DNA of 46,420 nucleotides. Origin: Citreicoccus inhibens (GTDB lineage: Bacteria > Myxococcota > Myxococcia > Myxococcales > Myxococcaceae). A model generated the notes under the pieces. It saw only the letters and a list, made by a program, of their open reading frames with translations, was not told the origin of the DNA and did no database searches. Numbering within the stretch: position 1 is the stretch's first letter; every line of letters starts with the position of its first letter. Of this stretch, positions 1,516-16,863 are shown piece by piece. The stretch is from positions 1 through 46,420 of the forward strand of contig NZ_JAHNZT010000048.1 in assembly GCF_019039035.1 (NCBI RefSeq), in the 5' to 3' direction. The position numbers and the translations under genes are program-made.

Positions 1516-3732
1516 CTATTTCAGATAGCGCTTGAAGTGGGCCATCACGGCCTCCTGCTTGCGCTGCGTAATCAGCGGATCCGGCACCATGTGCGTCAGG
1601 CCACTGAGCGGCAACAGCTCATGCGGCTTGCCGGCGCGGAACAGCGCGTCGCTCAGCTTCAGCGAGTGGAAGAAGTAGACGTTGTCATCGGCGGTGCCGT
1701 GCATGAGCAGGAGCGCGCCCATGGGCTTGTCCTGCTTCACGTACGACAACAGCGAGCTCTTCTCGTACGCCTCGGGGTGCTCCGAGGGCACGCCGAGGAA
1801 GCGCTCGGTGTAGTGCGTGTCGTAGTCCAGCCAGTCCACCACCGGGGCGCCGGCCACCGCGGCCTTGAAGACGTCCGGGCGCTTGAGGACGGCGAGCGCG
1901 GACATGTAGCCGCCGAAGCTCCACCCCTCGATGCCCACGCGGTTCAGGTCCACCTCGGGCATCTCGGCGGCGAGCGCCTGGAGCGCGGCCACCTGGTCCT
2001 CCAGCGTGACGCCGGAGAAGTCGTACTTCACCGAGCGCTCCCACTCCGCGGTGCGCAGCGGCGTGCCCCGTCCGTCGAACTTCACGACGAGGTAGCCCTG
2101 GTCCGCCATCCACTGGTTGAGGAGGTTGGCGGCCATGGACTGGGCGACGGTGGTCGTCGTGGGGCCGGCGTACACCTCCACGATGACGGGCAGCTTCTGG
2201 CCGGGCTTGAAGTCACGCGGCTTGATGATGGCCGCCCAGAACTTGCGCGGCCCCACCTGACGGACCTCCAGGTTGGGGACGAAGGGCGGCTCGTCGGCCA
2301 CCTCGGGCAGCTCGCCCACGCGGGTGCCATCCGCGCGCAGCACGTACGTGCGCGGCATGCTCTTGGGGCCCTGCGTGCCGAGCACCACGAGCCCGCCCTG
2401 CTTGGACACCGCGCCGCCCTCCATCGCGGGGCCGGTGACGCCCGACGACACCTTCTGCGGCGCGCCGCCGTCCTTCACGCGCCACAGGTAGCTCTCCGTG
2501 GGGTTGGGGCCGCCGGTGAAGAACAGCGAGTGGTCCGCCTGCACGAAGCGGCTGAGGGTGCGGAAGCCCGCGTCGGGCTTGACCACCGTGCGCACCAGCG
2601 CGCCGTCCGCCTTGCGCAGCTCCACCTCGGGGCCGCCGTTGCGCTCGGTGTACCAGAGGAAGCCGCTGCCATCCTCGAGCCACAGCGGGAAGTCCTGCTC
2701 CAGGTTGAGCCACGCCGCGTCCTTCTCGGTGAGCAGCGGCTGCGTCTTGCCCGTGCGCGGGTCGACGGACAGGACCTGCTCCTCCATCTGCGCGCGGTCC
2801 TGCACCACGAGCGTCAGCGGCCCGCCCTTGTCCCACTTCACGGTGGCCAGGTACGGGTACTTGGCCGCGTCCCACTGCGCCCACACCGTCTTGCCGCCCG
2901 CGGCCGGGACGATGCCCAGGCGCACCTTGGCGTTGGGCTTGCCCGGGCGTGGATAGGCGAACACCTCTCCGCCTCGCTCGGGGTGCATCACGTCGACGAT
3001 GGTGAGCTTCTCCACGTCGCTCGTGTCGGACTCGGTGTAGGCGAGCGACTTGCCATCCGGGCTCCACCAGTAGCCCGAGAAGCGGCTCATCTCCTCCTGC
3101 GCGACGAACTCGGCCAGGCCGTGCGTCTTCTGCTCGGTGCCGCCCGTGGTGATGCGCTTCTCCTGGTTGGTCGCCAGGTCCACGCGGTACAGGTCATGGT
3201 CGCGGACGTAGGCCACCTGCTTGCCGTCCTGCGACAGGCGCGGGTCCAGCACGCCCGGGCCCGTCTTCAGCTCCTGCGACTTGCCCGTGGCGCGATCCAC
3301 CACGAAGAGGCGACCGGAGAGCGGCACCAGCAGCCGCGAGCCGTCATCGGACAGGCTGTAGGTGGTGAAGCCGCGCGCGCTCACGCGCATGCGCTCCCGG
3401 CGGGCCTTCTCCTCGGGGGTGAGGGTCTCCTCGGTGCCCTGGAGGATGGAGGCGGGGGTGAGCAGCTCGCGGGTCTGCCCCGAGTCCACGTCGAACGCGT
3501 AGAGCATCTGCACGTTGGACGTGGGCTGCGTGCGCAGGAAGAGGACGGTCTTCTCGTCCGGGGTGATGCGCACGCCCACGGGACGGCCGCTCATGAAGCG
3601 GCGCGTGTCCGAGTACTGGCGCAGGAAGGTATCAACCTGGGTCTGCGAGGGAGCCATGGGAGGAGTCTTGTTCTCCTGGGCAACGGAAGGAGCGCTCATG
3701 AGAAGGAGCGCGGCGGTAAGGACCTGGCGCAT
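1516..3732 (-). CDS. Secreted S9 family peptidase (dipeptidyl-peptidase IV-like)
   Basis: A 738-residue serine peptidase of the prolyl oligopeptidase family, predicted to cleave short peptides outside the cytoplasmic membrane. I start at 3732 (MRQVLTAALLLMSAPSVAQ), a good signal peptide; the frame stays open further upstream but that part looks non-coding. An N-terminal beta-propeller (about residues 45-480, with DPP IV-like SRFSGYWWSPDG) precedes an alpha/beta-hydrolase domain. The catalytic triad is Ser605 in GWSFGG, Asp683 (or Asp682) in HGTADDNV and His714 in SGLTHMV. Length and order match bacterial DPP IV. It is convergent with the csp gene and divergent from the UPF0489 gene. DPP IV activity rather than general acyl-aminoacyl peptidase is inference from the WSPDG region. 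Confidence 0.9.
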   Translation of the reverse strand: MRQVLTAALLLMSAPSVAQENKTPPMAPSQTQVDTFLRQYSDTRRFMSGRPVGVRITPDEKTVLFLRTQPTSNVQMLYAFDVDSGQTRELLTPASILQGTEETLTPEEKARRERMRVSARGFTTYSLSDDGSRLLVPLSGRLFVVDRATGKSQELKTGPGVLDPRLSQDGKQVAYVRDHDLYRVDLATNQEKRITTGGTEQKTHGLAEFVAQEEMSRFSGYWWSPDGKSLAYTESDTSDVEKLTIVDVMHPERGGEVFAYPRPGKPNAKVRLGIVPAAGGKTVWAQWDAAKYPYLATVKWDKGGPLTLVVQDRAQMEEQVLSVDPRTGKTQPLLTEKDAAWLNLEQDFPLWLEDGSGFLWYTERNGGPEVELRKADGALVRTVVKPDAGFRTLSRFVQADHSLFFTGGPNPTESYLWRVKDGGAPQKVSSGVTGPAMEGGAVSKQGGLVVLGTQGPKSMPRTYVLRADGTRVGELPEVADEPPFVPNLEVRQVGPRKFWAAIIKPRDFKPGQKLPVIVEVYAGPTTTTVAQSMAANLLNQWMADQGYLVVKFDGRGTPLRTAEWERSVKYDFSGVTLEDQVAALQALAAEMPEVDLNRVGIEGWSFGGYMSALAVLKRPDVFKAAVAGAPVVDWLDYDTHYTERFLGVPSEHPEAYEKSSLLSYVKQDKPMGALLLMHGTADDNVYFFHSLKLSDALFRAGKPHELLPLSGLTHMVPDPLITQRKQEAVMAHFKRYLK

Positions 3733-3850
3733 GCGTGCTTGAACACCCGCCGGGGAGCGGGTCTCCTTTCGCGTGAAGGCGTGGCCGAGCCTACACTCCG
3801 CCGGCCGCGCGGGCCGGGTAACCCAAGGCCCACGAGAGGATTCCCTGGAC
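3733..3850. other. Divergent intergenic region (S9 peptidase / UPF0489)
   Basis: 118 bases between divergent starts, so it must hold both promoters. I cannot pick convincing -35/-10 boxes. A GAGAGGA ribosome site precedes the plus-strand gene. Confidence 0.4.
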
Positions 3851-4627
3851 ATGCGCCCCGACGACGACGCCACGCGGCATCTGCGACTGGCCGGAGTCAT
3901 CCGCCTCGCGCTGGGCGGCGGCCGAGGCCCCTCGGATGCCTACGTCTTCGACCCCCACCGGCTCGCCCTCCCCGCTTGGGTCTGCGCGCTCGGAGCGGCT
4001 GGGCCGCCAGCACTGTTGGTGACGCTCGACCGTCACCTGGACACGGTGGTGCCTGCTCGGCCCGCGGACGTGCCGGACCTCTCGGCGGGCCTGCGCGCCC
4101 TGGATGAGCACGCGCGCTGGTCCCTGGATGTCCGCAACTACGACCACATCCTCGCGGCCATGGAGGCCGGCGTGGTGGGAGACGCGCTGCTCATTGCCCG
4201 CTCACGGCCCCGGGGCGCCTTCACCGAGGACACCTACGTGGACACGCGCGGACGCGCGCACCGGCTGGTCATCGCGCCCACGGTGGACCGCGCGGCGGAG
4301 GCCTACCGAGCCCCCGCGCCCGGCGAGGCCGTGCGCACGGTGCTCGACGAGGCCGAGCGGGTGCTGCTCGACGTGGACCTGGACTGCTTCACCACCTTGA
4401 GCGACGCGGACCCCACCACGGTGATTCCCTGGCCCCGCGCGCTCATCCGGGAGTTCCTCCTGCCCGCGGACTCCGAGCCCTTCTGGGACGCGGTGCTGGG
4501 CAAGTCCGTGGCGCTGACGCTGGCCCGCGAGCCGTACCACTGCGGCGGGCTGCTCGCCTCGGGAGAGCTGTTCCGCGACCTGGCTGATGTGCTGTTCCGC
4601 GAGTTGCTGCGCGTGGAGCCGCCGTAG
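3851..4627 (+). CDS. UPF0489 family protein (arginase-like fold predicted)
   Basis: A 258-residue cytoplasmic protein of unknown function. Acidic/histidine motifs TLDRHLD (about residues 58-64), RNYDHIL (95-101) and LLDVDLDCF (172-180) resemble the metal-binding motifs of the UPF0489 (C5orf22-like) family, which is thought to adopt an arginase/deacetylase-like fold. From this I infer a metal-dependent hydrolase, substrate unknown. The start at 3851 is chosen for GAGAGGA about 10 bases upstream; an in-frame ATG at 3773 would add 26 residues that look non-coding and overlap the promoter gap. Its stop is only 12 bases from the convergent recX stop, so there is no room for a separate terminator. 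Confidence 0.62.
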   Translation: MRPDDDATRHLRLAGVIRLALGGGRGPSDAYVFDPHRLALPAWVCALGAAGPPALLVTLDRHLDTVVPARPADVPDLSAGLRALDEHARWSLDVRNYDHILAAMEAGVVGDALLIARSRPRGAFTEDTYVDTRGRAHRLVIAPTVDRAAEAYRAPAPGEAVRTVLDEAERVLLDVDLDCFTTLSDADPTTVIPWPRALIREFLLPADSEPFWDAVLGKSVALTLAREPYHCGGLLASGELFRDLADVLFRELLRVEPP

Positions 4628-4639
4628 GCCCCGGCAACC

Positions 4640-5206
4640 TCACTCCACCGGCCCATCCACGAGCTTCTTCGCGGTGGCGAAGGAGAACCCCGCGCGAGCC
4701 AGCGCGGCGAGGTCGCGTCGCCGGTTCTCCTCGCGGGTGCTCAGGTCTCTGCGGAAGGGCCCCAGCCGCTTCTTGCGCGCCCAGATGCGCGCGGCGGCTT
4801 CCTCGGACACGTCCTCGGTGGCGAGCGCCAGCTTCTGCGCGACGACCTCGGGCGCGATGCCCTTCATCCGCAGCTTCTGGGTGATGACCCGAGCGCTGCG
4901 TCCCGAGGCGCGCAGCGCGTGCGCCCTCATCTCGGCGTAGGCGGGATCATTCACGAGCCCATTGCGAACGAGCTTCTCGGTGAGCGCGCGCACCCAGCCC
5001 AGCGCCTCGGCGCGGTCCCCTCCATGGCAGCGCAGCGAGCGGTCGACTCGGCGCTCCAACACCCGCTGGAGTTGGCTCACCGTCGCGGCGTAGCGCTTGA
5101 GGTAATGCAGTGCCGCGTTCTCCAGGTAGCGCGGGGACACCTTCCGGGGCTGCTTCGGCTTCTTGGGGCCACCCCGGCCCGCGTCACCCTTCTGCTCGTC
5201 TTCCAT
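4640..5206 (-). CDS. recX: Regulatory protein RecX
   Basis: A 188-residue RecX homologue. RecX binds RecA filaments and caps or disassembles them, restraining recombination and the SOS response. The all-helical body shows the family pattern: ALHYLKRYAATVSQLQRVLERR, then LVRNGLVNDPAYAEMRAH and ARVITQKLRMKGI, ending in a third helical repeat (RRRDLAALARAGFSFATAKK). The N-terminus is a basic Lys/Pro-rich tail of about 24 residues. There is no recA next to it, unlike many genomes in which recX follows recA; it sits downstream of the Omp85-like gene with a 68-base gap. Convergent with the UPF0489 gene. Confidence 0.88.
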   Translation of the reverse strand: MEDEQKGDAGRGGPKKPKQPRKVSPRYLENAALHYLKRYAATVSQLQRVLERRVDRSLRCHGGDRAEALGWVRALTEKLVRNGLVNDPAYAEMRAHALRASGRSARVITQKLRMKGIAPEVVAQKLALATEDVSEEAAARIWARKKRLGPFRRDLSTREENRRRDLAALARAGFSFATAKKLVDGPVE

Positions 5207-5274
5207 GCGGCGGCGTGTCTACCACCCAGGTCCGACACCGCGCACGCACCCACGACGTACGCCGGGCAGGCGAC

Positions 5275-7194
5275 CTAGGGAGAGTCCAGGAACGAGGGCC
5301 GATAGTCGGTCACCTGTCCCGCGCTGAAGGAGAACCGGCCGCTCACGGGAGGACGGTCCCCGTTGAGCACGTAGCCAAAGTCGATGCGGAACGGATTCAC
5401 GTTGAACTGCGGGAAGAGCAGCCGCAGGCCCACGCCCACGGAGGTCACCATCGACGGCCTGCGGTTGAACGCGCTGCCCGAGTCGAGGAAGAGCACGCCC
5501 CCCAGGTGTACGGTCTTGATGACGAGCGGCGGCGAGCGGTACTCGAGGTTGAACAGCAGGAGCCGCTTGCCCGAGTACGCATCCACGAGCGCCCCGCGCA
5601 GCCCATTGCCACCGCCCAGCAGGCTGATGCGGTCCGACAGGTCGTCGATGTTCACGTCCAGCACGCCGCGGCCCACGATGCGCCCGCCGAAGAACTGGGG
5701 CGAGGCCTGCACGAATTCGGTGGCCCAACGCCGATCCGTCCACCCCGCGTTCTCGCCGAGCTGCCGGCGAATGGACGCAGCGGCCGACACCGCGGTGAGC
5801 GCATCGCCGGCCCAGCGCACGCGGTAGCGCGCGGTCACCGCCCCTTGCGCGTAGTGCGCCGAGGACGAGAGCACGGGCGGCGCATACCGGAGCGACGCGC
5901 CAATGGAGTGACCGAGCTGCACATCCTCCGACAGCGCATACGAGTCCAAGTCATGGAACACCTCGTAGCGCGCCTCGTAGGCGCTGAGGGACAGGCTCGC
6001 GTAGGCCGCGTCCTCGGCGCGCGGCAGGTAGTTGCTGCGGAACCATGCCTCCTGCGCGTCGGTGAGCATGGAGGCGACGGGCGCGGCGTAGGCATCGTGA
6101 TAGGCGCCCGCGCCCATGCCCACGTTCCACTTGTAGCGATGACCGAACGAGCGCGTGTACGTGACTCCGCCCGCCACCTCGCGCGCGTTGTAGACGTAGG
6201 GCACGGCGGGCCCGTCCGGGAACGGGAGCTGCCAGATGTCCGCGCCGCGATACTGGCGCGCGGTCTCCACGTTCCACGCCACGGAGGAGCTCACGCTCCA
6301 CGGCGTGGCCAGCGAGTACAGCGGCCGACTCACGGAGAGGCTGCCGCGCGAGCCCTCGGGCTTGCCGCTCTCGCGTCCGAGCAGCACCGCCGCGGACTCA
6401 CTGAGCGCCCAGCGACTGCCGAGCACGCGCCGGTCGGTGTAGCTCTGGCCCAGGCTGATCGTGTCGAGGCGGAGCACGAAATCCACCGCGACCTTCTTGC
6501 CGCGTCCGAGGAAGTTCTGCTCCGTGCCCTGCAACCTCAGGTACTGGAGCAACGAGCCCACCGCGGAGAAGTCGCTGTTGAGTCGCAGCGACCACAGGTC
6601 CTTGGTGATGAGCAGCAGCACGACCGTGCCGGGCTGACGGCCCTTCACGGTCACCGCGCGCACGGCGGAGAAGAGGCCCAGCTTGCGAAGGTTGCGCACG
6701 GACTCGTCCACGAGCGCCGCCGAGTACGGCTGGCCCGGAGTCAGCAACACCTCTCGGCGGACCACGTCATCGCGCGTGCGCGCATGGAAGATGTTGAGGA
6801 GGTTCGGGTACGGGTCGCTCTGGGCCACCACGTCCTCGGCGGCCACGCGCACATCCTCCAGCACTTTGCCTTCGGGCGCGGGCTCCACCACATCGCCGCC
6901 CCGCGCGAGGCCCCACGCGATGAGCGTCTGCTCGTAGTCCGCGCTCACGCCCGCATCGGAAGACACCCCCACCTGTTCACCGTTCGGAGCCGACGGCGTG
7001 AATCCGGTGTTCGCTCTCGCCTCAGCAGCGGACGGAACCGACGGGGAGTTCACGCCCGAATCGAATGCGGGACTCGCGCCTCCGCTCGGGGCCGACTGCA
7101 CGAGAGCGGTGCCCGCATCCGAGGACGCGGCATCAGGCCCCGACGGAACCTGGGCGAGCGGTGCGACGAGCAGGGCAAGCAACAGGAGCGGCAC
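5275..7194 (-). CDS. Omp85/BamA-TamA-like outer-membrane protein
   Basis: A 639-residue predicted outer-membrane beta-barrel. It has a signal peptide (MPLLLLALLVAPLAQ), then about 90 residues of Ser/Ala/Pro-rich spacer. One POTRA-like domain follows (about 110-195: RREVLLTPGQPYSAALVDES, then VRNLRKLGLFSAV), and then a long barrel with alternating aromatic strands. The GGGNGLRGALVDAY segment matches the conserved L6 loop region of Omp85 proteins (usually [VI]RG[FY]), followed by LFNLEYR and the C-terminal strands. Bacterial BamA usually carries five POTRA domains, so this is a reduced paralogue rather than the essential assembly factor; TamA-like or lipid/protein-export roles are possible. It is 44 bases downstream of the BtuF-like gene on the same strand. 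Confidence 0.8.
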   Translation of the reverse strand: MPLLLLALLVAPLAQVPSGPDAASSDAGTALVQSAPSGGASPAFDSGVNSPSVPSAAEARANTGFTPSAPNGEQVGVSSDAGVSADYEQTLIAWGLARGGDVVEPAPEGKVLEDVRVAAEDVVAQSDPYPNLLNIFHARTRDDVVRREVLLTPGQPYSAALVDESVRNLRKLGLFSAVRAVTVKGRQPGTVVLLLITKDLWSLRLNSDFSAVGSLLQYLRLQGTEQNFLGRGKKVAVDFVLRLDTISLGQSYTDRRVLGSRWALSESAAVLLGRESGKPEGSRGSLSVSRPLYSLATPWSVSSSVAWNVETARQYRGADIWQLPFPDGPAVPYVYNAREVAGGVTYTRSFGHRYKWNVGMGAGAYHDAYAAPVASMLTDAQEAWFRSNYLPRAEDAAYASLSLSAYEARYEVFHDLDSYALSEDVQLGHSIGASLRYAPPVLSSSAHYAQGAVTARYRVRWAGDALTAVSAAASIRRQLGENAGWTDRRWATEFVQASPQFFGGRIVGRGVLDVNIDDLSDRISLLGGGNGLRGALVDAYSGKRLLLFNLEYRSPPLVIKTVHLGGVLFLDSGSAFNRRPSMVTSVGVGLRLLFPQFNVNPFRIDFGYVLNGDRPPVSGRFSFSAGQVTDYRPSFLDSP

Positions 7195-7238
7195 GCGTCC
7201 ATCCTGTCACGGGCCACGCCCACCGCCAGGGCCCCACC

Positions 7239-8108
7239 TCACGACAGCGCGGAGCGCAGCTCCCCGCCCCGAACCGCGGGCAGCGTCTCCCCGCGCGCGA
7301 CAGCGGCGACGATGCGCGCGAGCTGCGCCACCCCGTCCGACAACGCCGCCGGGCCCGGCTGGAGGATGTACGCGCTCCGCACCTCGTAGAGCTGATCCGC
7401 GAGCACCGCGGGCACCGCGTCCCAGCCCGGCCGAGAGACAATCTTGTCCCGCTGGGCCTTTCGCCCACACCAGCTCGCGATGACGCCCTCGGGCGCTCGG
7501 CGCGCCACCTCCCGTGGGTCGAAGATGCGCCCCTGCGCCCCCTGGGACGCGCGCGACTCGCTGCAGATGTCCACGCCCCCCACCAGCTCCACCAACTCCG
7601 AGCACCACCGGATGCCGGAGATGAGCGGCTCGTGCCACTCCTCGAAGAAGATGCGAGGCCGCCGCGGCAGTGACTCGGCGGCGTCCGCGTGACGCTCCAG
7701 GTTGGCCTCCAGCTCCCTGGCCAGCGCATCCGCGGCCTCCGCGCGGCCCACGAGCGCTCCGGTCACGCGCACCGCCTGAAGGATCTCCGCGATGGACCGC
7801 TGGTTGAACAGGTAGACCGGCACCCCGCGCTTGCACAGCTCGCGACCGATGTCCGCCTGCAAGTCCGAGAACCCCAGCACCAGGTCCGGCTTCAGCTCGA
7901 GGATGCGCTCGAAGTTCGCGTCGAGGAACGAGCTGACCCGCGGCTTCTTGCGCGCCGCCGGCGGGCGCACCGTGAAGCCCGACACGCCGACGACGAGGTC
8001 CTCCGCGCCGATGCGGTAGAGCACCTCCGTCGTCTCCTCCGTCATGCACACCACCCGCCGCGGATAGGGCGGGGCCAAAGCGAGCAACGCGGACAGGCGG
8101 GCGTTCAT
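7239..8108 (-). CDS. BtuF-like (ABC-transporter type) cobalamin/ferric-chelate binding protein
   Basis: A 289-residue protein with the bilobal BtuF/FhuD-type fold: PRRVVCMTEETTEVLYRIG (strand plus helix start), VVGVSGFTVRP, VSSFLDANFERILELKPDLV, YLFNQRSIAEIL, and a C-terminal lobe (FFEEWHEPLISGIRWCSELV, then AYILQPGPAAL). Family members bind vitamin B12, haem or iron chelates for an ABC importer. No convincing signal peptide or lipobox is seen from the chosen start (8108). The frame is open upstream to 8693 without a better leader, so it may act in the cytoplasm or have another role. No permease or ATPase gene is adjacent. It is divergent from the kinase/TonB-receptor operon, which could supply the outer-membrane step. 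Confidence 0.78.
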   Translation of the reverse strand: MNARLSALLALAPPYPRRVVCMTEETTEVLYRIGAEDLVVGVSGFTVRPPAARKKPRVSSFLDANFERILELKPDLVLGFSDLQADIGRELCKRGVPVYLFNQRSIAEILQAVRVTGALVGRAEAADALARELEANLERHADAAESLPRRPRIFFEEWHEPLISGIRWCSELVELVGGVDICSESRASQGAQGRIFDPREVARRAPEGVIASWCGRKAQRDKIVSRPGWDAVPAVLADQLYEVRSAYILQPGPAALSDGVAQLARIVAAVARGETLPAVRGGELRSALS

Positions 8109-8432
8109 GCGCGGCACCCTAACGGCCCCGCTCCGCCACCGCGAGCACGCACCCGACCCACCCGGTCCCCTCATGTTCGGATCCGCCATAACGCAACGCG
8201 CCACGCCACCCGGAGTGCGCGCGCGCGCGGGTGAATGCGAGTGGAAGCATCCTGTCCGCGCACCCGGACTTGCGGTATGGGGAGGCGGCTGGCGCAGCGG
8301 CGGGAGCCGGATTCTCGGCCCCTGATGCGCTGCGGCAGTGATGCAGGTCTCTTGGGAGACGGACATTTGCGGTGTTACCATCCCCCCGCTCGACCGGACG
8401 TTTCCCGTCCTTCTCGCTCGGTGGGGGAAGAC
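8109..8432. other. Divergent regulatory region (BtuF-like gene / kinase operon)
   Basis: 324 bases without a gene. It contains a 13-base alternating GC run (8217-8229), a B12-box-like 13-mer on the minus strand (8343-8355), a small GTCTC-TTGG-GAGAC hairpin (8347-8360) and the possible plus-strand promoter below. Confidence 0.5.
8352..8381 (+). promoter_or_regulatory. Possible housekeeping promoter of the kinase operon
   Basis: TTGGGA (8352-8357) and TACCAT (8376-8381), each 4/6 to sigma-70 consensus, are separated by 18 bases and end about 50 bases before the kinase start. Weak evidence only. Confidence 0.25.
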
Positions 8433-9989
8433 ATGATCGAAAGCGACGTCCCGACGACGGGCGCGCCACCCGACGTGACGGATCCCCTTCTGGGGAGAGT
8501 ATTGAACGAGCGCTTCCGCATCTTGGAGACGCTCGGTGCCGGAGGCATGGGTCGCGTCTACAAGGCCGTCCAGTTCCCGCTGGAGCGGCTGGTGGCGTTG
8601 AAGGTGCTCAACCCGCAGTACAGCGACGGCAAGGACCCCGGATTCCAGAAGCGCTTCTTCCTGGAAGCCAGCGTCACCGCGCGGCTGCGCCATCCGAACA
8701 CCGTCACCGTCATCGACTACGGCAAGACCGACGACGGCATCTTCTACATCGCCATGGAGTACCTGGAGGGGCTCACGCTCTCGCAGCTCCTCACCCAGGA
8801 AGGGCCGCTGCCGTGGAACCGCGCCCTCAACATCACCCAGCAGGTGGCGCGTTCACTGAGAGAGGCCCACAAGGTCGGCCTCATCCATCGCGACCTGAAG
8901 CCCGCCAACATCATGGTCCTCAATCAAGAGACCGACCATGACGTGGTGAAGGTGCTCGACTTCGGCCTGGTGAAGTCCATCCAGGGCGACGCGGATCCAG
9001 TCCCCAAGGACGCGTCGCTCACGCAGACGGGCATCATCCTGGGCTCGCCGCAGTACATGGCGCCCGAGCAGGCGCGCAACGTCTCCGACCCGCGCAGCGA
9101 CATCTACAGCCTGGGCGTGGTGCTCTACCAGATGCTCATGGGACGGCCGCCGTTCCTGGCCGCGCAGAGCATCGACGTCATCGTCAAGCACATCAACGAG
9201 CCGCCGCCCGCGTTCGGCTCGCTGTGGCCCGAGCACACCGTCACGGCCGAGGTCGAGGCCGTGGTGATGAAGTGCCTGGCCAAGCGCGCCGAGGACCGCT
9301 TCCAGTCCATGGAAGACGTGATGAACGCCATGCGCCGCGCGGCCGCGGCCTCGGGGGTCAGCGGCGTCTTCTCCAGCCCCCGCACGGCGGTGGGCAGCGG
9401 CCCCATCAGCGGTCCGCACACCGGCCCGCACGCGATGCCCGGCTCGGGCCCCAGCACCATGGCGCTGGACATCTCCGTGGAGGAGCCCGAGAAGAAGAGC
9501 CAGAAGGGGCTCATGGTCGCGCTGTTCGGCGGCGCGGTGCTCCTTGGCATCGCGGGCGCGTTGGTCGTGGCACTGCGCCCGGCCACGCCCGAGCCCACCG
9601 CGCCCACTCCCATCGAGGCCGCCGCCGTCGCGCCCAACCCGGCCCCCACGCCCACGCCCACGCCGCCTCCGGCGCGCGATGACCTGGCGCCCATTCCGGA
9701 TCCGGTCCGCTTCCTCATCACCACGGAGCCCTCCGGCGCTCAGGTGGAGTACGAGGGCAAGCTGGTGGGCGAGACGCCGGTGAACATCGAGGTTCCCTCG
9801 GACGCGCTCGGTCACGCGAGCGCCCAGCTCACCTTCAGCCTGGACGGCTATCAGCGGATCATCGTCCAGGCCGAGGGCACCGGCACCGAGATTCGGTTCA
9901 ACCAGAAGCTCACGAAGACGAAGAAGGCGAGCACGCGTCCTGCCAAGGGCGCGGGCTCGTCCGCGTACAAGGACGATCCCTACCAGTGA
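8433..9989 (+). CDS. Membrane Ser/Thr protein kinase with PEGA domain
   Basis: A 518-residue Hanks-type kinase. Start 8433 follows GGGGGAAG at good spacing. The kinase domain (about residues 28-300) has the glycine loop LGAGGMGRVYKA, Lys57 in VALK, catalytic Asp154 in HRDLKPAN and Asp176 in DFG, plus SPQYMAPEQ and DIYSLGVVLYQ, so it should be active. After a Gly/Pro/Ser linker comes one transmembrane span (about 360-382), a Pro/Thr/Ala-rich stretch and a C-terminal PEGA-like domain (about 424-490, ITTEPSGAQVEYEGKLVGET), predicted outside the cytoplasmic membrane as a sensor or wall-binding module. Its stop codon overlaps the GTG start of the TonB receptor gene, so the two are probably co-translated. 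The pairing suggests that the kinase senses or controls the uptake system; this is inference. Confidence 0.93.
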   Translation: MIESDVPTTGAPPDVTDPLLGRVLNERFRILETLGAGGMGRVYKAVQFPLERLVALKVLNPQYSDGKDPGFQKRFFLEASVTARLRHPNTVTVIDYGKTDDGIFYIAMEYLEGLTLSQLLTQEGPLPWNRALNITQQVARSLREAHKVGLIHRDLKPANIMVLNQETDHDVVKVLDFGLVKSIQGDADPVPKDASLTQTGIILGSPQYMAPEQARNVSDPRSDIYSLGVVLYQMLMGRPPFLAAQSIDVIVKHINEPPPAFGSLWPEHTVTAEVEAVVMKCLAKRAEDRFQSMEDVMNAMRRAAAASGVSGVFSSPRTAVGSGPISGPHTGPHAMPGSGPSTMALDISVEEPEKKSQKGLMVALFGGAVLLGIAGALVVALRPATPEPTAPTPIEAAAVAPNPAPTPTPTPPPARDDLAPIPDPVRFLITTEPSGAQVEYEGKLVGETPVNIEVPSDALGHASAQLTFSLDGYQRIIVQAEGTGTEIRFNQKLTKTKKASTRPAKGAGSSAYKDDPYQ

Positions 9990-12517
9990 GAACAGTGAAA
10001 GCCCTCCAGCGAGCGGCCCTCGTCGCGGTGTGTCTGTGCGCGACCGAGGCCCTGGCGGACGCCCGCCTCGAGGCCCGTCGTCACTTCCGCAACGGCATGA
10101 GTCTCATCGCCTCGGGGCAGTTCGACCCGGGCATCGCCGAGCTGGAAGCGGCCTATGCCATCAAGCCGCACCCCAACGTCCTCTTCAACATCGCCCGCGC
10201 GTATCAGGACGCGGGCCGCAACCAGGAAGCGCTCGACACGTTCAAGCGCTACCTGGCCTCGAACCCGGCGGACTCCTCGTCCGTGACGGGACAGGTGGCC
10301 AAGCTGGAAGCAGCGCTCAAGGCCGCCGAGGTGGCGGCGGAGCCGAAACCCGGCGCGAGCGGCTCGTCGCTGCCCATGCCGCCGCCGCCCGCGAGCGTGC
10401 AGACGACGCAGCAGCTCGCCACGCTGATGGAGCGGCTGGAGAAGGCCATCGCTCGCGCGGAGTCCCTGCCGAGCCAGCCGCAGCAAGGCCCGGCCTCCTC
10501 CACCTACGTGCCCGTCGCCCTGCCGGGCTCGGGCGTGGAGGCCGCCGCCGCCCCCGCGGTGGATGAGGGCGCGGTGCCCTACGAAGAGCGCGTCGTGACG
10601 GCGAGCCGTCGCGCGCAGTCCTCGCTCGAGGCGCCCAACGCGACCACCGTCATCACGGCGGAAGACATCCGCCTGTCGGGCGCCACCAGCCTGTCGGAGC
10701 TGATGCGCCGGGTGCCGGGCGCGGACGTGATGACGCTGGGCGTGGGCAGCGCGAACGTGTCGCTGCGCGGCTTCAACCAACGCATCGCCAACAAGGTGCT
10801 CGTCCTCGTGGACGGCCGCACCGAGTACCAGGACTTCCTCGGCCTGACGCTCTGGTCCACGCTGCCCATCGGGCTGGATGAAATCGAGCGCATCGAGGTC
10901 ATCCGTGGACCGGGCAGCGCCCTGTACGGCGCCAACGCCATGCTCGGCGTCATCAACATCATCACCCAGGCGCCCGGCAGCGGCCCTCGCTCGCGCTTCA
11001 CCGCGACGGTGGGCAGCGGCCACACGGTGGACGGCTCGTTCGTCAGCCACGGCGGCTCGGGCCCGCTGCGCTTCCGCGCCTCGGCGGCGTACGCGCAAGA
11101 GGACAAGTGGAGCCGCGACTACGGCGATGATCGCCCGGACGTGGCGCTGTTGGGTGGCTCGCCGGAGATTGGTCTGCGCGGCGCGCGTGGCAACCTGTCC
11201 ACCGTCTACACGTTCGACAACGGGCGGCAGCTCGGCGTCTCCGGCGGCGTGCACCGCTACGCCACGGAGGTCTATCCGCTGGGCCTCCTGCGCAACTACT
11301 ATCTCAACGGCCTCAGCGCGTACGCGAAGAGCGACGTGGAGCTGGGCCCCATCAAGGTCAAGGCGTTCTGGAACCACCTCGCGGTGGACGCGGGACCGCA
11401 GTACGAGCCCATTGGCCAGCGCTCGCTGGCCACGCACGTCACGTCCAACGTGTTCAACGGCGAGGCGCTGTACGCCAAGAACTTCGAGTTGGCCGGTGAG
11501 CACCAGGTGAACATCGGCGTGGAGGGCCGCCTCAAGCGCGTGGCCTTCAGCTACCTGGGGCCGCTGCGTCAGGAGGTCCACGCCGCGGCCTTCATCCAGG
11601 ACGAGTGGCGCGTGGTGGAGCCCTTCCGCTTTGTGGCCAGCTACCGCGTGGACCGCCACCCGCTGCTGGACAACGGCAAGCCCGGGCTTGCGCATTCGCC
11701 GCGCGTCTCGGCGCTGTTCACGCCGTTCGAGGGTCAGGCGTTCCGGGCCTCGGCGGCCTCGGCCTTCCGCGAGCCCACCTTCCTCGAGAGCTACACGCGG
11801 CTTCCCGTCCCGGTGCCGGGCGTCAACGGCGCCAGCGTGCTCACCACGGGCAGCACGCAGCTGCGTCCCGAGCGCCTCACCGCCCTGGAGCTGGGGTGGC
11901 GCGGCGAGGCCCCGGAGCTGGGCTTCGACTGGGACCTGGCGCTCTACCAGAACACGGTGAAGGACCTCATCGGCCTGTCCGCGTTCCAGGCCCTGCCCGC
12001 GGGCGAGGCGTATGACCCGGGCACTGGCAGCTACCTCCTGGGCCGCTCGGTCTTCCAGAACGAGGCCGCCATCTACACGGCGCGCGGCGTGGAGGCCGGC
12101 GTCACGCTGGCCCCCATTGACGGCTTGGGCATCAAGGCCAGCGCCGCGATCCAGCACATGACGGCGCAGAACGAGGAGCAGTGCGGCCCGTGCAGCCAGG
12201 CCCCCGGGGTCAAGCTGTACGGCGGCGTCACGTACCGCACGCGCGCGGACCTGGAGTTCGGCGTGGACGCGGCCTTCACCTCGTCCACCACGTGGATCGA
12301 GCGCGAGCCCTCCCCGTCCGACCCCACCACCGTGCAGTTCAACTCGAACCCCCTGTCGGCCTACACGGTCATCAACGCGCGCGTGGGCTACGAGGCCGTG
12401 AAGGACGCGGTGTCCGTCGCGCTCGTCGGCAGTCACCTGGGCGGCACGCACGCCCAACATCCCTTTGGCAATCGCATCGAGCGGCGAGTCTTCGCCACGC
12501 TGACGGTGACTCCATGA
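9986..12517 (+). CDS. TonB-dependent receptor with N-terminal TPR domain
   Basis: An 843-residue outer-membrane receptor. After a signal peptide (KALQRAALVAVCLCATEALA) it has a periplasmic TPR-like region (about 25-90: ARRHFRNGMSLIASGQFDPG, FNIARAYQDAGRNQEALDTF), a linker with a short helical segment, and then the plug (about 197-325: RVVTASRRAQSSLEAPNATT, LMRRVPGADV, VLVLVDGR, IERIEVIRGPGSALYGANAM) and a 22-strand-type barrel to the C-terminus. Such receptors import iron chelates, B12, nickel or sugars using TonB energy. A TPR in front of the plug is uncommon. GTG at 9986 overlaps the kinase stop; GTG at 9995 gives a cleaner signal peptide and is an equally good start. The next gene overlaps by ATGA. 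The substrate is not evident from sequence. Confidence 0.88.
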   Translation: MRTVKALQRAALVAVCLCATEALADARLEARRHFRNGMSLIASGQFDPGIAELEAAYAIKPHPNVLFNIARAYQDAGRNQEALDTFKRYLASNPADSSSVTGQVAKLEAALKAAEVAAEPKPGASGSSLPMPPPPASVQTTQQLATLMERLEKAIARAESLPSQPQQGPASSTYVPVALPGSGVEAAAAPAVDEGAVPYEERVVTASRRAQSSLEAPNATTVITAEDIRLSGATSLSELMRRVPGADVMTLGVGSANVSLRGFNQRIANKVLVLVDGRTEYQDFLGLTLWSTLPIGLDEIERIEVIRGPGSALYGANAMLGVINIITQAPGSGPRSRFTATVGSGHTVDGSFVSHGGSGPLRFRASAAYAQEDKWSRDYGDDRPDVALLGGSPEIGLRGARGNLSTVYTFDNGRQLGVSGGVHRYATEVYPLGLLRNYYLNGLSAYAKSDVELGPIKVKAFWNHLAVDAGPQYEPIGQRSLATHVTSNVFNGEALYAKNFELAGEHQVNIGVEGRLKRVAFSYLGPLRQEVHAAAFIQDEWRVVEPFRFVASYRVDRHPLLDNGKPGLAHSPRVSALFTPFEGQAFRASAASAFREPTFLESYTRLPVPVPGVNGASVLTTGSTQLRPERLTALELGWRGEAPELGFDWDLALYQNTVKDLIGLSAFQALPAGEAYDPGTGSYLLGRSVFQNEAAIYTARGVEAGVTLAPIDGLGIKASAAIQHMTAQNEEQCGPCSQAPGVKLYGGVTYRTRADLEFGVDAAFTSSTTWIEREPSPSDPTTVQFNSNPLSAYTVINARVGYEAVKDAVSVALVGSHLGGTHAQHPFGNRIERRVFATLTVTP

Positions 12518-13755
12518 GCCGCCCCATTCCTGCTTCCACCCGGGCCCTGTGGGCCCTGGCCGTCTCGTCCGTGCTGTCCGCGGGCTGCGAGTCCCCGCCC
12601 GTGGTTCCCACCGCGGATCACCAGCAGAACACCCGCGCCGGCCGCATCGAGGGCACGCTCGTGGCGCAGACCCGCGCGCGCGGCAACGCCATCGTGTTCA
12701 TCTACGACGCGGACCGTCCGCCCCCGCCCGTCGGGACCGGTCGGCCCAAGGCCTTCACCGTCATCCCCGCCGTGGAGTTGTTCGGACAGGCCCTGGGCGA
12801 CCCCTCGGCCACCGGCCCCTTCACCGCGCCGTTCACGCTGAGCCTGGTGGAGCCCGGCCGCTACCTGCTGCGCGGCTTCATCGACGCGGACACCTGCCGC
12901 ACGGGCGCGCAGCCCTGCCACACCTCGGACTTCATCCCCTGGTATGGCGTCACCGGCGAGCCCAACATGGGCGACGTGGGCGGCGCCGCGGTGGACCTGG
13001 CCACGGGGGCCTCGCGCATCTTGGAGGTGACCTCGGACGCGGACGGCTGGCCTCAGCCGCTCACCGGCGTCGCGGTCTCCTTCTCCGACACGGCCACCGT
13101 GCCGTTGGATCGACCCGCCTTCCAGGTCGCCGTCGGCACGCGCACGCTGGACGCGAAGTCCGGCACCAAGCTCCTCAAGCTGCGGCCCCAGGTCATCTCC
13201 CAGGGAGGCGTGGAGCAGCGCCCGCCGGGCTTCCTGGTGCAGTACGTGGACGACAACCACGACGGCATCCCGGATGACGCCAACCACGACAACGTGGGCG
13301 ACCTGTGGCCCAAGGTGGTGGTGCGCAAGCTGGCCGGTACCGTGGGCGTGCTCGACGAGAACGACCTGGACCACAACGGCATCCCGGACGCCGAGGGCGT
13401 GGACTACGTGCACACCGATGGGATGCGCGACGGTCAGCCGGACGTCGTGGTGCTCGCCGCGGGGCTGGTGCCGGACGCGCTCATCGCCGCGCTCACCGAT
13501 GAGCAGGGCGCGCCGCGCATGAAGCCCATCATCGCCCCCGAGTTGGACATCGCCATCCGGCCCATCGCGCTGGATGCACGCAACCCGGCCGCGCCCGCGC
13601 CGCTGGCCTCGCTGCCCTCGGGCCGCTACTCCATCACCCTCATCACCTCGACGGGCCAGACGTGGCGCGTGCCCAACGAGTTGGATCCGGCCCTGGCCCC
13701 CGCGCTGGGCCTGCCCTCGGTGGAGACCCAGTCATTCACCATCGAGGTCCCCTAG
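12514..13755 (+). CDS. Predicted lipoprotein with calcium-repeat-like motifs
   Basis: A 413-residue protein of unknown function. The signal sequence ends in a lipobox, SVLSAGC, with Cys25 as the lipidation site. Residues about 38-125 look like a beta-sandwich of the carboxypeptidase-regulatory/transthyretin type (GRIEGTLV, SLVEPGRYLLRGFIDAD). Around residues 246-262 (DDNHDGIPDDANHDNVGD) and 285-299 (DLDHNGIPDAEGVD) are Asp-rich repeats like thrombospondin type-3 calcium sites. Another beta-rich part (GRYSITLITSTGQTWRVPNE) closes the protein. The start overlaps the TonB-receptor stop (ATGA), so it is likely a surface partner of that receptor; no family name is recognised. Confidence 0.75.
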   Translation: MSRPIPASTRALWALAVSSVLSAGCESPPVVPTADHQQNTRAGRIEGTLVAQTRARGNAIVFIYDADRPPPPVGTGRPKAFTVIPAVELFGQALGDPSATGPFTAPFTLSLVEPGRYLLRGFIDADTCRTGAQPCHTSDFIPWYGVTGEPNMGDVGGAAVDLATGASRILEVTSDADGWPQPLTGVAVSFSDTATVPLDRPAFQVAVGTRTLDAKSGTKLLKLRPQVISQGGVEQRPPGFLVQYVDDNHDGIPDDANHDNVGDLWPKVVVRKLAGTVGVLDENDLDHNGIPDAEGVDYVHTDGMRDGQPDVVVLAAGLVPDALIAALTDEQGAPRMKPIIAPELDIAIRPIALDARNPAAPAPLASLPSGRYSITLITSTGQTWRVPNELDPALAPALGLPSVETQSFTIEVP

Positions 13756-13924: not shown

Positions 13925-14443
13925 ATGGGTGCGTTCCACGGGGGGCTGTTCCTCCGGGTTCGCCCTCTCATGAAGTCAGGCCCCCTCCCCACTCCCGAAG
14001 CGCCATCCCCTCGTCTGTCCGGGAGTACGCCTGCGGTGCGCCCGACCTCCGGAGTCTCGCCCCAGCGTGTGCTGCTGGTGGATGACAGCCGCTCCATCCG
14101 GACGCTGCTGAAAATCTACCTGATGGCCCGCAGCTTCGAGTTCCTCGAGGCGGAGTCCGCCGAGGAGGGACTGAAGGTCGCCGAGGCCAGCCCGGTGGAC
14201 CTCATCCTCACGGATTTCCACATGGATGGGATGAACGGGGCGGACTTCGCGGCGCAGATTCGCGCCAGCGCGAACGTGCGGCTCGCCAAGGTTCCCATCC
14301 TGATGATGACGGGCGACCCCAACGTCGCCGAGGTGCGTGCCCTGGGCCAGAAGGCCGGCATCAGCGCCTTCGTCCGCAAGCCGGTGAGCTGCGCACAGCT
14401 CATGACGCTGGTGGACACCATCCTTCCCCTGCCCCGCAAGTAA
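13925..14443 (+). CDS. Stand-alone response-regulator receiver protein
   Basis: A 172-residue single-domain response regulator. The receiver (about residues 47-168) has the acidic pair Asp53/Asp54 (LLVDDSRSIR), phospho-acceptor Asp97 (ILTDFHMDG), Thr129 (MMTGD) and Lys152 (VRKP), so it should be phosphorylated. There is no output domain. The N-terminal 45 residues are Pro/Ser-rich and may be disordered. ATG 13925 is chosen because AGGGGGGG lies about 12 bases upstream; ATG 13970 lacks a ribosome site and would drop 15 residues. It resembles CheY-like partners of chemosensory or hybrid kinase systems, but no histidine kinase is adjacent. Confidence 0.87.
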   Translation: MGAFHGGLFLRVRPLMKSGPLPTPEAPSPRLSGSTPAVRPTSGVSPQRVLLVDDSRSIRTLLKIYLMARSFEFLEAESAEEGLKVAEASPVDLILTDFHMDGMNGADFAAQIRASANVRLAKVPILMMTGDPNVAEVRALGQKAGISAFVRKPVSCAQLMTLVDTILPLPRK

Positions 14444-14455
14444 CGCGCGTCCACC

Positions 14456-15079
14456 TCAGGCCACGCGTCGTGTCTGAGGCGCGCGAGCCCGTCGCTGACG
14501 CAGCGCTTCGCCCACGCGCACGGCCAACAGCAGCGCGAGCACCGCGCCGTAGACCAACGGCTCGGTGACGTCGCGCTTCACCCGCCACGCGAAGTGCACC
14601 ACGCCCAGCGCGGCGGCGGCGTAGGCCAGCCGGTGCAATCGCTGCCACTGGGGAAAGCCCAGCCGACGCACCGACGCCTTCGTCGACGTCACGGCGAGCG
14701 GCACGAGCAACACCAGCGCGGTGAAGCCCACGGTGATGAAGGGCCGCTTCACCACATCCGTGGCGAGCGCGGACAGCGCGAGGTTCTGATCCAGCACGAC
14801 ATACGTGAGGAGGTGGGCCACGGCATACGTGAAGGCCAGGAGCCCCAACGTGCGGCGCACGCGCGCGGGCCAGGTCCAGCCAGACAGCAGTCGCAGCGGC
14901 GTGCACGCGAGCGAGGCCAACAGCAGCACCAGGGCCGTGAGCCCCGTCTGATTCAAGGCGCGCTCGATGGCGTTCGCGCCAAGCGAGCCCTGTGCGCCCT
15001 GAATGACGAGGACCACCAAGGGCGCAAGACCGCCCACGGTGAGCGCGGGGTTGAGCCACGGATGCGGAGGCGAGGCCAT
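14456..15079 (-). CDS. msrQ: MsrQ (YedZ), haem-binding membrane subunit of methionine sulfoxide reductase
   Basis: A 207-residue integral membrane protein with about six hydrophobic spans in the ferric-reductase-like arrangement. Histidines in FTYAVAHLLTYVVLD and WQRLHRLAYAAAALGVVHF are the expected haem b ligands. MsrQ passes electrons from the quinone pool or flavin to the molybdoenzyme MsrP, which repairs oxidised methionines in periplasmic proteins. The gene follows msrP with only 10 bases between, so the two form an operon. The segment LACTPLRLLSGW matches MsrQ rather than generic ferric reductases. The Arg-rich C-terminal tail is cytoplasmic. The gene order msrP-msrQ is the usual one. 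Confidence 0.9.
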   Translation of the reverse strand: MASPPHPWLNPALTVGGLAPLVVLVIQGAQGSLGANAIERALNQTGLTALVLLLASLACTPLRLLSGWTWPARVRRTLGLLAFTYAVAHLLTYVVLDQNLALSALATDVVKRPFITVGFTALVLLVPLAVTSTKASVRRLGFPQWQRLHRLAYAAAALGVVHFAWRVKRDVTEPLVYGAVLALLLAVRVGEALRQRRARAPQTRRVA

Positions 15080-15089
15080 GGGGTGTCCC

Positions 15090-16079
15090 TCAGAAATCCC
15101 GGCTCAGGTCCATGCCCTGGTACAGCGAGGCCACCTGCTCCGCGTAGCCGTTGAACGGCAGCGTGGGCCGGCGACGGAACTCGCCGAGGCGGCGCTCATG
15201 GGCCTGACTCCAGCGCGGATGATCCACCGCAGGGTTCACGTTCGCATAGAAGCCGTACTCGCGCGGCGCCGCGAGGTTCCAGGTCGTAGGTGGCTGCTCG
15301 CGCGTGAGCGTGATGCGGACAATGGATTTGATTCCCTTGAAGCCATACTTCCACGGGACGACGAGCCGCAGCGGCGCGCCGTTCTGCGGCGGGAGCTGCT
15401 TGCCATAGAGCCCGGAGGCCAGGAGCGTCAGGGGATGCTGCGCCTCATCCAGGCGCAAACCCTCGACGTAAGGCCAGTCCAACACGCCGCGCCGTTGGCC
15501 GGGCATCTGCTCGGGATCGTTCAGCGTGGTGAAGGCCACGTACCGAGCGGCGCCCGTGGGCCGAGCGCGTTCCAGCAGCCGCGCCAGGGGAAAGCCCAGC
15601 CACGGAATCACCATGGACCACGCCTCCACGCAGCGCATGCGATAGACGCGCTCCTCCAGCGGGAACGCCGCGAGGAGCGCGTCGATGTCCCACGTGCGCG
15701 GCTCGTGCACCTCGCCATCCACGACCACGGTCCACGGCCGCGTTCGCAGCGTGCCCGCGTGGCGAGCGGGGTCGCTCTTGTCGAGGCCGAACTCGTAGAA
15801 GTTGTTGTACGTGGTGACGACGTCGTAGGGCGTGCGCGGCTCGTCCGTGTCCAAGGCCCCCACCCCATGCGCCACGGGCTGGGGCACTTCCCCTGCGTCC
15901 GGCACGAGCACATCCGAGGGAGGCGCCTGGCGCGCGCCCAGCCAGTACAAGCCTCCGCCCACGCCCACGGCCGTGCCCGTGAAGAGAGCGACGTTCCGGA
16001 TGAAGTCGCGGCGGCGCAGGTAGAGCTTCTCGGGGGTGACCTCGGAAGCGGGTGGCTCGGGCGGAAGCGGGTCGGCCAT
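15090..16079 (-). CDS. msrP: MsrP (YedY), Tat-exported molybdopterin methionine sulfoxide reductase
   Basis: A 329-residue periplasmic oxidoreductase that reduces both stereoisomers of protein-bound methionine sulfoxide. The twin-arginine signal LRRRDFI (residues 21-27) followed by a hydrophobic stretch shows export in folded form with its Mo-cofactor. Cys150 in [10 protein letters not shown] is the Mo ligand of the sulfite-oxidase fold. Other family segments are [40 protein letters not shown] and [12 protein letters not shown]. Length is normal for the family. It is the first gene of an msrPQ operon. I see no two-component regulator of the MsrVW type next to it. Confidence 0.94.
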
Positions 16080-16113: not shown

Positions 16114-16863
16114 TTACCGCCCCTGCGCGAGATGCCCCACGCCCCGCGCGTCCTTCAGGCGCCACAGCCGCCACCAAGGCGTACCCGGCGACGCGTGATG
16201 CTCCCAGTGGTAGCCAAAGAAGTAGCAGGACAGCAGGGCCCACGCGTGATTGCGCGTCAGCGAGCGCGCGTGGTGCGGCGCCATGTCCTCGGTGTGCGGA
16301 TGCCGGTGCGGCAGGTAGGTGCCGAAGCAGAAGAGCTGGAGGGTGCCCAGGACGGAGGGCACTACCCAGAAGGCCCACAGGCGCTCGCGCGTCGCCCCGG
16401 CGAGCAGGAGCAGGTTGAACTGGAGCGCCATGACCACCCACTGCCCCCACGTGGTGTAGCGGGCCATGAAGAGCGCCAGCCACGGCACGAAGGACTGCGA
16501 ACGGGTGGAGAAGTCCGGGTCGCTCGCGTCCGTGGGTGCCGCGTGGTGCGCCGAGTGGTGGGCCACGAGCCGTCGATAGGACAGGCCCGCGAAGAGGAAG
16601 CACGCGGCCATGCCCACCGCGTCGTTCACAATTCGGTGACGTGACACCGCGCGGTGCATGGCGTCATGGGCCGTGATGAAGAGGCCGGTGCACAGGGAGA
16701 CCTGAAGCGCTCCGTGCAGCCACGCCGCGGGAGACGTCCAGGACAGCCCCGGCGCGCGCAGCAACCAGACGAGGTGCGCGCACCACGCGCCCATCAGGCC
16801 GAGCGCGATGAGCAGGCCCCACGGCCCGGGAGACTCCGGACGCTGACGCGGCGGCGTGTCCAT
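16114..16863 (-). CDS. CrtW-like di-iron membrane oxygenase (carotenoid ketolase / fatty acid desaturase family)
   Basis: A 249-residue integral membrane protein with the histidine boxes of the desaturase/hydroxylase superfamily: HDAMH (66-70), HHSAHH (102-107) and YHWEHH (218-223). In addition DPDF (115-118), FGTYLPHR (180-187) and PWWRL after the last box match the pattern of CrtW beta-carotene 4-ketolases, as does the length. The inferred reaction is oxygen-dependent 4-ketolation of a carotenoid; myxobacterial carotenoids are known to carry 4-keto rings. No other carotenoid gene is adjacent, so a lipid desaturase or hydroxylase remains possible. It is separated by a strong hairpin from the M49-like gene upstream and by 34 bases from msrP downstream on the same strand. 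Confidence 0.72.

Follow-up and report, generated by a model that had tools for sequence, protein, structure and literature searches.

In the FecA-FecR-FecI system the receptor carries a periplasmic N-terminal extension before its TonB box, and the inner-membrane protein encoded with it has a periplasmic C-terminal part. To our knowledge, sigma and anti-sigma factors account for most of what is known of TonB-dependent trans-envelope signalling. Here we describe a locus of Citreicoccus inhibens that encodes, in this order, a membrane Ser/Thr kinase, a TonB-dependent receptor with an N-terminal tetratricopeptide repeat (TPR) domain and a putative lipoprotein. It lies in a stretch of 46,420 nucleotides (the window; NZ_JAHNZT010000048.1), which is one whole contig of a 9.05-Mb genome. 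The layout is that of FecA-FecR with every signalling part exchanged, which suggests that the receptor controls the kinase by docking of a kinase peptide on its TPR domain, the two forming a trans-envelope signalling unit; we put the probability of this reading at about one half.

The locus shares with FecA-FecR-FecI an N-terminal periplasmic extension (TPR, amino acids (aa) 26-117), followed by a TonB-box-like stretch (200-206), and a co-encoded inner-membrane partner. It differs in that TPR replaces STN and a Ser/Thr kinase, ending in a short invariant tail, replaces FecR. Pfam (E <= 0.01) finds TPR, Plug and barrel in the receptor and no STN domain. No FecR-like or extracytoplasmic function (ECF) sigma factor gene occurs among the genes scanned between 4640 and 18665, a scan outside which 16114-16863 and the remaining genome lie; the genes scanned match RecX, Omp85, Peripla_BP_2, kinase, response regulator, MsrQ, MsrP and peptidase M49. 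Lacking the STN domain, and a FecR or sigma factor gene among the neighbours scanned, the locus falls outside the Fec type; pending experiment, we class it as a variant of TonB-dependent trans-envelope signalling.

SusC-SusD and BtuB-BtuG are pairs of a TonB receptor and a lipoprotein. Here too the receptor adjoins a putative lipoprotein (95/97 readable loci), which differs in being without a family and in resembling fimbrillin and Ig-like structures only weakly. The barrel and plug fold is like that of BtuB and Cir, to which the receptor of the window adds the TPR domain and a long linker. PknB and Stk1, the PASTA kinases, likewise combine a kinase domain, one transmembrane helix and an extracytoplasmic sensor part, whereas the kinase of the window has a PEGA domain and a docking-like tail and no PASTA repeats; its best NCBIfam match, NF033483, scores 314.4, below the cut-off of 450. 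Mbk of Mycobacterium tuberculosis, a kinase with C-terminal NHL repeats, is also a membrane Ser/Thr kinase encoded within a transport operon, that of pst (PMC1262709). As far as the available part of that paper goes, Mbk differs in being linked to phosphate transport, in its NHL repeats and in having no outer-membrane receptor partner (PMC1262709). The sequence-only reading, made from the letters of the window without database searches, knew of no named system with this make-up, and no account of one was found in the open-licence papers of PubMed Central, subscription papers lying outside the search.

The three genes form a conserved unit across the myxobacteria. A receptor profile matches 103 of 195 Myxococcota genomes at E <= 1e-60, and the locus was matched in 86/96 of the genomes examined that carry the Myxococcaceae label. 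Loci were counted in 102 of the 103 receptor-positive genomes (G059 left out; G numbers denote genomes, L numbers loci) after dropping L021, a duplicate of G014, and L050, which belongs to G039 outside the 103. A locus counted as readable upstream if over 150 bases preceded the extrapolated receptor start, and downstream if over 600 followed the receptor stop. The kinase stands upstream of the receptor in 95/96 readable loci, the lipoprotein downstream in 95/97, and the whole triad is present in 89 of the 91 loci readable on both sides. This order strongly supports the earlier proposal that the three genes are one system, and it rules out an adjacency restricted to this strain. In G095 (L240) kinase and receptor are both kept, although separated by a reading frame on the opposite strand.

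Two smaller sets give the same order. Among the loci of 20 relatives a kinase match lies upstream on the receptor strand in 18 (L045 and L046 begin at the receptor) and a lipoprotein match downstream in 19 (none in L050). A scan of named genome contigs yielded at least 13 relatives with a match reaching the TPR part (L079-L091); seven are taken as loci already among the 195 genomes and six are new (L085, L087-L091), with 34-38% identity among the matches listed. Of these at least 13 relatives, 12 have a kinase match, L089 beginning inside the receptor, and ten a lipoprotein match, the others being L084, L086, which ends inside the receptor, and L090, which ends at a second receptor. L090 (3997-7001) shows a kinase and then an apparent tandem of two TPR receptors, the second cut by the contig end.

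The kinase closes with a strictly conserved C-terminal tail, which the sequence-only reading had not mentioned. After a poorly conserved PEGA domain and linker, 95 of 95 kinases end in [YF][KR][DE][DN]PY and at most one further residue (YKDDPY in 72, FKDNPY in 10, YKEDPY in 6, others in 7). In 84 full-length kinases, near relatives not being down-weighted, the mean frequency of the top residue is 0.87 in the tail and 0.43 in the linker directly before it, and the final Pro and Tyr are present in 84/84. Exchanges occur between Asp and Glu at position 3 and between Tyr and Phe at position 1.

The tail is nearly exclusive to genomes with the TPR receptor. Searched as DNA and closed by TAA or TGA, it occurs in 94/195 genomes, at one site each (the two entries for G057 being a single site), and a reversed control pattern gives one match in the same genomes. 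The site is on the contig and strand of the receptor in 91 of the 94, no more than 100 bases from the receptor match in 85 and at most 1266 bases away; in G110 and G114 it lies on a different contig, and G039 has no barrel. Among the 92 receptor-negative genomes G039 alone contains the pattern, and none of the ten that belong to the Myxococcaceae does. G039 has neither barrel nor lipoprotein match and keeps the kinase, its tail and a 226-residue TPR protein that ends at the TonB-box-like stretch. Ten receptor-positive genomes do not contain the DNA pattern. In seven of them (G013, G024, G056, G061, G063, G066 and G161) translation shows the tail, which ends at a TAG stop or uses another codon; in G002 and G003 the contig ends too early, and the tenth, G050, has no such tail. 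At 11 other TonB receptor loci used as a control (nine in G000 and G023, plus L071 and L072) there is no tail-bearing kinase, and the pattern occurs once each in G000 and G023, both times at the main locus.

In the window the tail codons hold AAGGA a dozen bases before the GTG start of the overlapping receptor gene, and the tail might thus be kept as DNA or RNA, as the ribosome-binding site of that gene. The codons of 96 tails, including that of G039, make this hardly credible. Synonymous change is common (Pro as CCC/CCG/CCT/CCA 34/53/7/2, Lys as AAG/AAA 85/9, Asp as GAT or GAC), Asp/Glu and Tyr/Phe exchanges occur, and the Pro and Tyr codons lie beyond AAGGA. The tail is also kept where the receptor match begins 207 (L225), 586 (L220) or 1250 (L240) bases off. 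Since Pro and Tyr are constant while four Pro codons are in use, and the tail persists across such gaps, it is conserved as protein, and its reading as a ribosome-binding site was set aside.

Some further kinase endings were seen. Those of other new loci are RYKESPY (L085), GYKANPFD (L088) and GYKAEPY (L090), and L089 is unreadable. About 3 kb from its main locus G011 has a paralogous kinase that ends in KEDPF and is followed by a stand-alone TPR protein with a signal peptide (L037 445-3519, minus strand). The ending K[DE]DPF has two matches in the 195 genomes, this one and one in G123, which by reading is not at a gene's end and was rejected as a kinase tail.

The receptor has the plug and TonB-type barrel of a TonB-dependent receptor by both Pfam and Foldseek. 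Its model (mean predicted local distance difference test score, pLDDT, 71.6) runs from the TPR domain through a low-confidence linker, a helix and a low-confidence stretch with the TonB-box-like sequence to plug and barrel. The best Foldseek folds are Cir (9nn6, E 6.1e-28) and BtuB (3m8b, E 2.7e-26), at 16-19% identity, and do not name its cargo. The TPR sequence could be obtained in 98 of 103 loci. Its predicted groove is basic and aromatic, with R/K31, F/Y34, M38, F/Y67 and N/D68 in 98/98 and R/K71 in 95/98, and groove-lining positions average 0.79 compared with 0.70 at other non-structural positions. Such a groove is suggestive, in that it suits an acidic tail ending in Tyr. L087, which has an odd tail, also alters the groove (L35, L38, A41). 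D31, E35 and N38 occupy the groove of another kind of TPR receptor, one with no kinase next to it, seen at L071 and, in a second genome, at L072. MXAN_5766, a TPR protein reported among vesicle proteins, was considered as this receptor and rejected; it occurs in papers with SgmX in their titles and is taken to be SgmX.

In the kinase Pfam finds Pkinase and PEGA, the latter weakly (25.0 bits, cut-off 20.8). The Hanks-type motifs (the VAxK lysine, HRDLKPxN, DFG and APE) are all present and nearly invariant across 17 sequences. Across the same 84 kinases the top residue has a mean frequency of 0.78 for the kinase domain, 0.54 for PEGA and 0.39-0.43 for the linkers. Catalysis is probably under selection, because the motifs are conserved and the kinase domain is kept better than PEGA and linkers. 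Only one stretch (about 361-384) is strongly hydrophobic, so PEGA and the C terminus are expected in the periplasm, and we infer a topology with the catalytic domain in the cytoplasm. In L048 (G035, 6454-8021) the kinase match is split over two frames, with the N-terminal half in the other frame and the tail still YKDDPY, a possible frameshift or sequencing error. PADLOC matches are to the generic kinase domain.

We therefore favour the following model. The receptor would bind and import its cargo, probably aided by the co-encoded lipoprotein, and its periplasmic TPR domain would grip the YKDDPY-type C-terminal peptide of the inner-membrane kinase, the linker and PEGA domain of which would bridge part of the periplasm. 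Binding of cargo, or TonB-driven movement at the TonB box, would alter the contact between TPR and tail; this would switch the cytoplasmic kinase domain, and phosphorylation of its targets would signal the state of the receptor inwards. The model builds on the observed gene order and overlaps, the tail, the TPR domain with its conserved groove and the intact catalytic motifs; the docking and the direction of signalling are what we infer. The sequence-only reading had suggested a control circuit in which the kinase either signals uptake or tunes the importer. The invariant tail, near-exclusive with the TPR receptor, lends indirect support to a kinase that reads the receptor, and direct phosphorylation of the importer is made less likely by the predicted cytoplasmic position of the catalytic domain. 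More tentatively, at a little under even odds, there may be a phylum-wide class in which eukaryotic-like Ser/Thr kinases are under the control of TonB receptors whose periplasmic TPR domain reads the C-terminal peptide of the kinase, a phosphorylation-based counterpart of FecA-FecR.

Several observations weigh against control by docking. The groove positions were assigned by TPR register and not from model coordinates, and the related sequences behind the conservation counts are not independent. The known carboxylate clamp of the Hop type has K5 and N9 in TPR1, N6 in TPR2 and K2 and R6 in TPR3; in the receptor TPR only N68 (TPR2 position 6) fits, and TPR1 has F34 and M38. Tail and groove do not always change together: the distant relatives L087 (GYMPLPDDFK) and L091 (GYREW) deviate in the tail, the latter with an unchanged groove, and in L085, with Leu at groove positions 31 and 71, the tail is still near-normal. 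G050 (L246) has a groove of the usual type, and neither kinase nor lipoprotein was found beside its receptor, on a contig that ends 1.4 kb upstream, nor was the tail pattern found in a scan of its genome. G066 (L239) is without a lipoprotein next to the receptor. Kinase proximity alone is not rare: four of the 11 control receptors (L159, L160, L164 and L071) have a kinase gene at a distance of up to about 4 kb. The tail could also bind another envelope protein.

The same conservation of tail and TPR domain would fit a scaffold, in which PEGA and tail tether the receptor to the inner membrane, so as to place it or present it to TonB, and signalling is secondary or directed outwards. The periplasm is held to lack ATP, so the kinase would be unable to act on the receptor directly, which agrees with this explanation. 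It seems unlikely to us given that the catalytic motifs are conserved and the kinase domain is better kept than PEGA and linkers. Mere co-regulation, with the genes answering a shared condition and the kinase sensing cargo or stress alone through PEGA, would account for the operon structure, for the one conserved promoter-like block 5' of the kinase and for the kinase genes near other TonB receptors. It leaves unexplained why an invariant tail follows a poorly conserved PEGA domain, why G039 keeps kinase and TPR stub, and why the tail is nearly absent elsewhere, and we regard it as quite unlikely. Tail and TPR domain might instead both bind a third partner, for example another periplasmic protein, so that their link is indirect; the groove of G050, kept with no kinase detected beside the receptor, is in line with this. 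The queried neighbours in the window (the Peripla_BP_2 gene not counted) stand beside the triad only in nearer relatives, partners encoded elsewhere not having been sought, and such a partner appears very improbable.

The features of the locus are listed in Table 1. The sequence-only reading had joined the three reading frames by stop-start overlaps, and their coordinates and both 4-base overlaps hold: the kinase stop (TGA, 9987-9989) shares bases with the receptor GTG at 9986, and the receptor stop (TGA, 12515-12517) with the lipoprotein ATG at 12514. An in-frame GTG nine bases downstream of 9986 is an alternative receptor start. The overlaps recur in relatives, as read from the sequence, starts not being mapped. 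Among 97 loci where the receptor stop could be read and a lipoprotein matched, 85 have an in-frame lipoprotein start that overlaps this stop (ATGA 82, GTGA 3). At the junction of kinase and receptor, a start codon in the receptor frame overlaps the stop of the kinase in 65/95 (by 4 bases in 45, by 1 base in 20). A block CTTGGG...GTG[CT]TA[GC]CAT, likewise new relative to the sequence-only reading, lies about 50 bases 5' of the kinase start. GTG[CT]TA[GC]CAT is present in 15 of 16 aligned upstream regions, picked from 67 available and mostly from near relatives, and L039 deviates. The block is a plausible candidate for a single promoter of a three-gene operon.

Table 1. Features of the kinase-receptor-lipoprotein locus, in positions of the window
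Feature	Position	Strand	Evidence
Promoter-like block CTTGGG ... GGTGTTACCAT, 5' of kinase	8350..8381	+	upstream alignment, read by eye
Membrane Ser/Thr kinase, 518 aa	8433..9989	+	reading frame, Pfam, alignment
Kinase domain, aa 29-294, catalytic motifs conserved	8517..9314	+	Pfam, alignment
Predicted transmembrane helix, about aa 361-384, single strongly hydrophobic stretch	9513..9584	+	hydropathy only
PEGA domain, aa 428-496, predicted periplasmic	9714..9920	+	Pfam
C-terminal tail YKDDPYQ, aa 512-518, near-invariant in relatives	9966..9986	+	alignment, genome pattern scan
TPR-TonB-dependent receptor, 843 aa	9986..12517	+	reading frame, Pfam, alignment, structure model, Foldseek
Periplasmic TPR domain, aa 26-117	10061..10336	+	Pfam TPR; model with five helices, pLDDT blocks mostly 80-89, two at 66-70
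TonB-box-like EERVVTA, aa 200-206	10583..10603	+	alignment: E200, E201, V204, A206 invariant in 18 sequences
Plug domain, aa 215-322	10628..10951	+	Pfam
TonB-dependent beta barrel, Pfam stretch aa 362-810	11069..12415	+	Pfam, Foldseek
Putative lipoprotein, 413 aa	12514..13755	+	reading frame, alignment, structure model

The third protein has no Pfam or NCBIfam family match. Its description as a lipidated calcium-repeat protein agrees with a signal-like stretch, with a Cys25 that is invariant across 17 aligned sequences, and with aspartate-rich calcium-type repeats near aa 245-262 and 281-293 in a beta-sandwich-like protein. Lipidation is likely rather than shown, because the residue at -3 of the lipobox is Ser; a loose, rough lipobox pattern matches 57/97. 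The model is of low confidence (pLDDT 69.9), and the likeness of its first domain to fimbrillin and Ig-like sandwiches (Z 7.2) may reflect a common arrangement only. In L048 (G035, 10712-13732) and L049 (G029, 3198-7400), from another family of the order, the lipoproteins have 1006 to 1400 aa by predicted starts, with several stretches that each match the single lipoprotein of the window.

Among the neighbours in the window, a divergent Peripla_BP_2 protein (7239-8108, minus strand), which we take to be of a cobalamin- or siderophore-binding type, is a possible hint to the cargo; no permease gene was recognised beside it. An Rfam scan of the window gave nothing at the gathering score, and so no B12 riboswitch at that threshold. 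On the other side lie a stand-alone response regulator and then convergent MsrQ and MsrP genes (13979-16079). These were rejected as a guide to the cargo, being matched beside the triad in nearer relatives only.

Two further receptor loci in the genome of the window also carry kinase or phosphatase genes. L159 (G000 C38:111000-122000, 2631-7142) has a Ser/Thr kinase, a PEGA-containing protein and a TonB receptor without TPR match, all in the same direction. L160 (G000 C112, 1-11500, minus strand) has a TonB receptor with a HAMP-SpoIIE phosphatase and a long TPR protein to one side of it; to the other side lies a kinase protein that also matches STAS below threshold. L164 (G023) is like it by eye, with a phosphonate-binding-like protein preceding the receptor. 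At L071 (G000 C79, 4713-9981) a kinase gene on the opposite strand begins some 3 kb off, and a divergent lipoprotein-like gene with CarboxypepD_reg adjoins the TPR-TonB receptor. L078 (G039 C38, 2465-9583) contains a tandem pair of kinases, with a TPR match next and a large lipoprotein-like gene after it. The triad is possibly the best-kept case of a broader wiring of myxobacterial TonB receptors to Ser/Thr phospho-signalling.

Myxobacteria have a great number of Ser/Thr kinases, most of them with no known input signal. The locus offers a concrete candidate input for one of them, together with a seven-residue handle. If the docking model is true, it would add a kinase branch to TonB-dependent trans-envelope signalling and a TPR-peptide contact that works in the periplasm.

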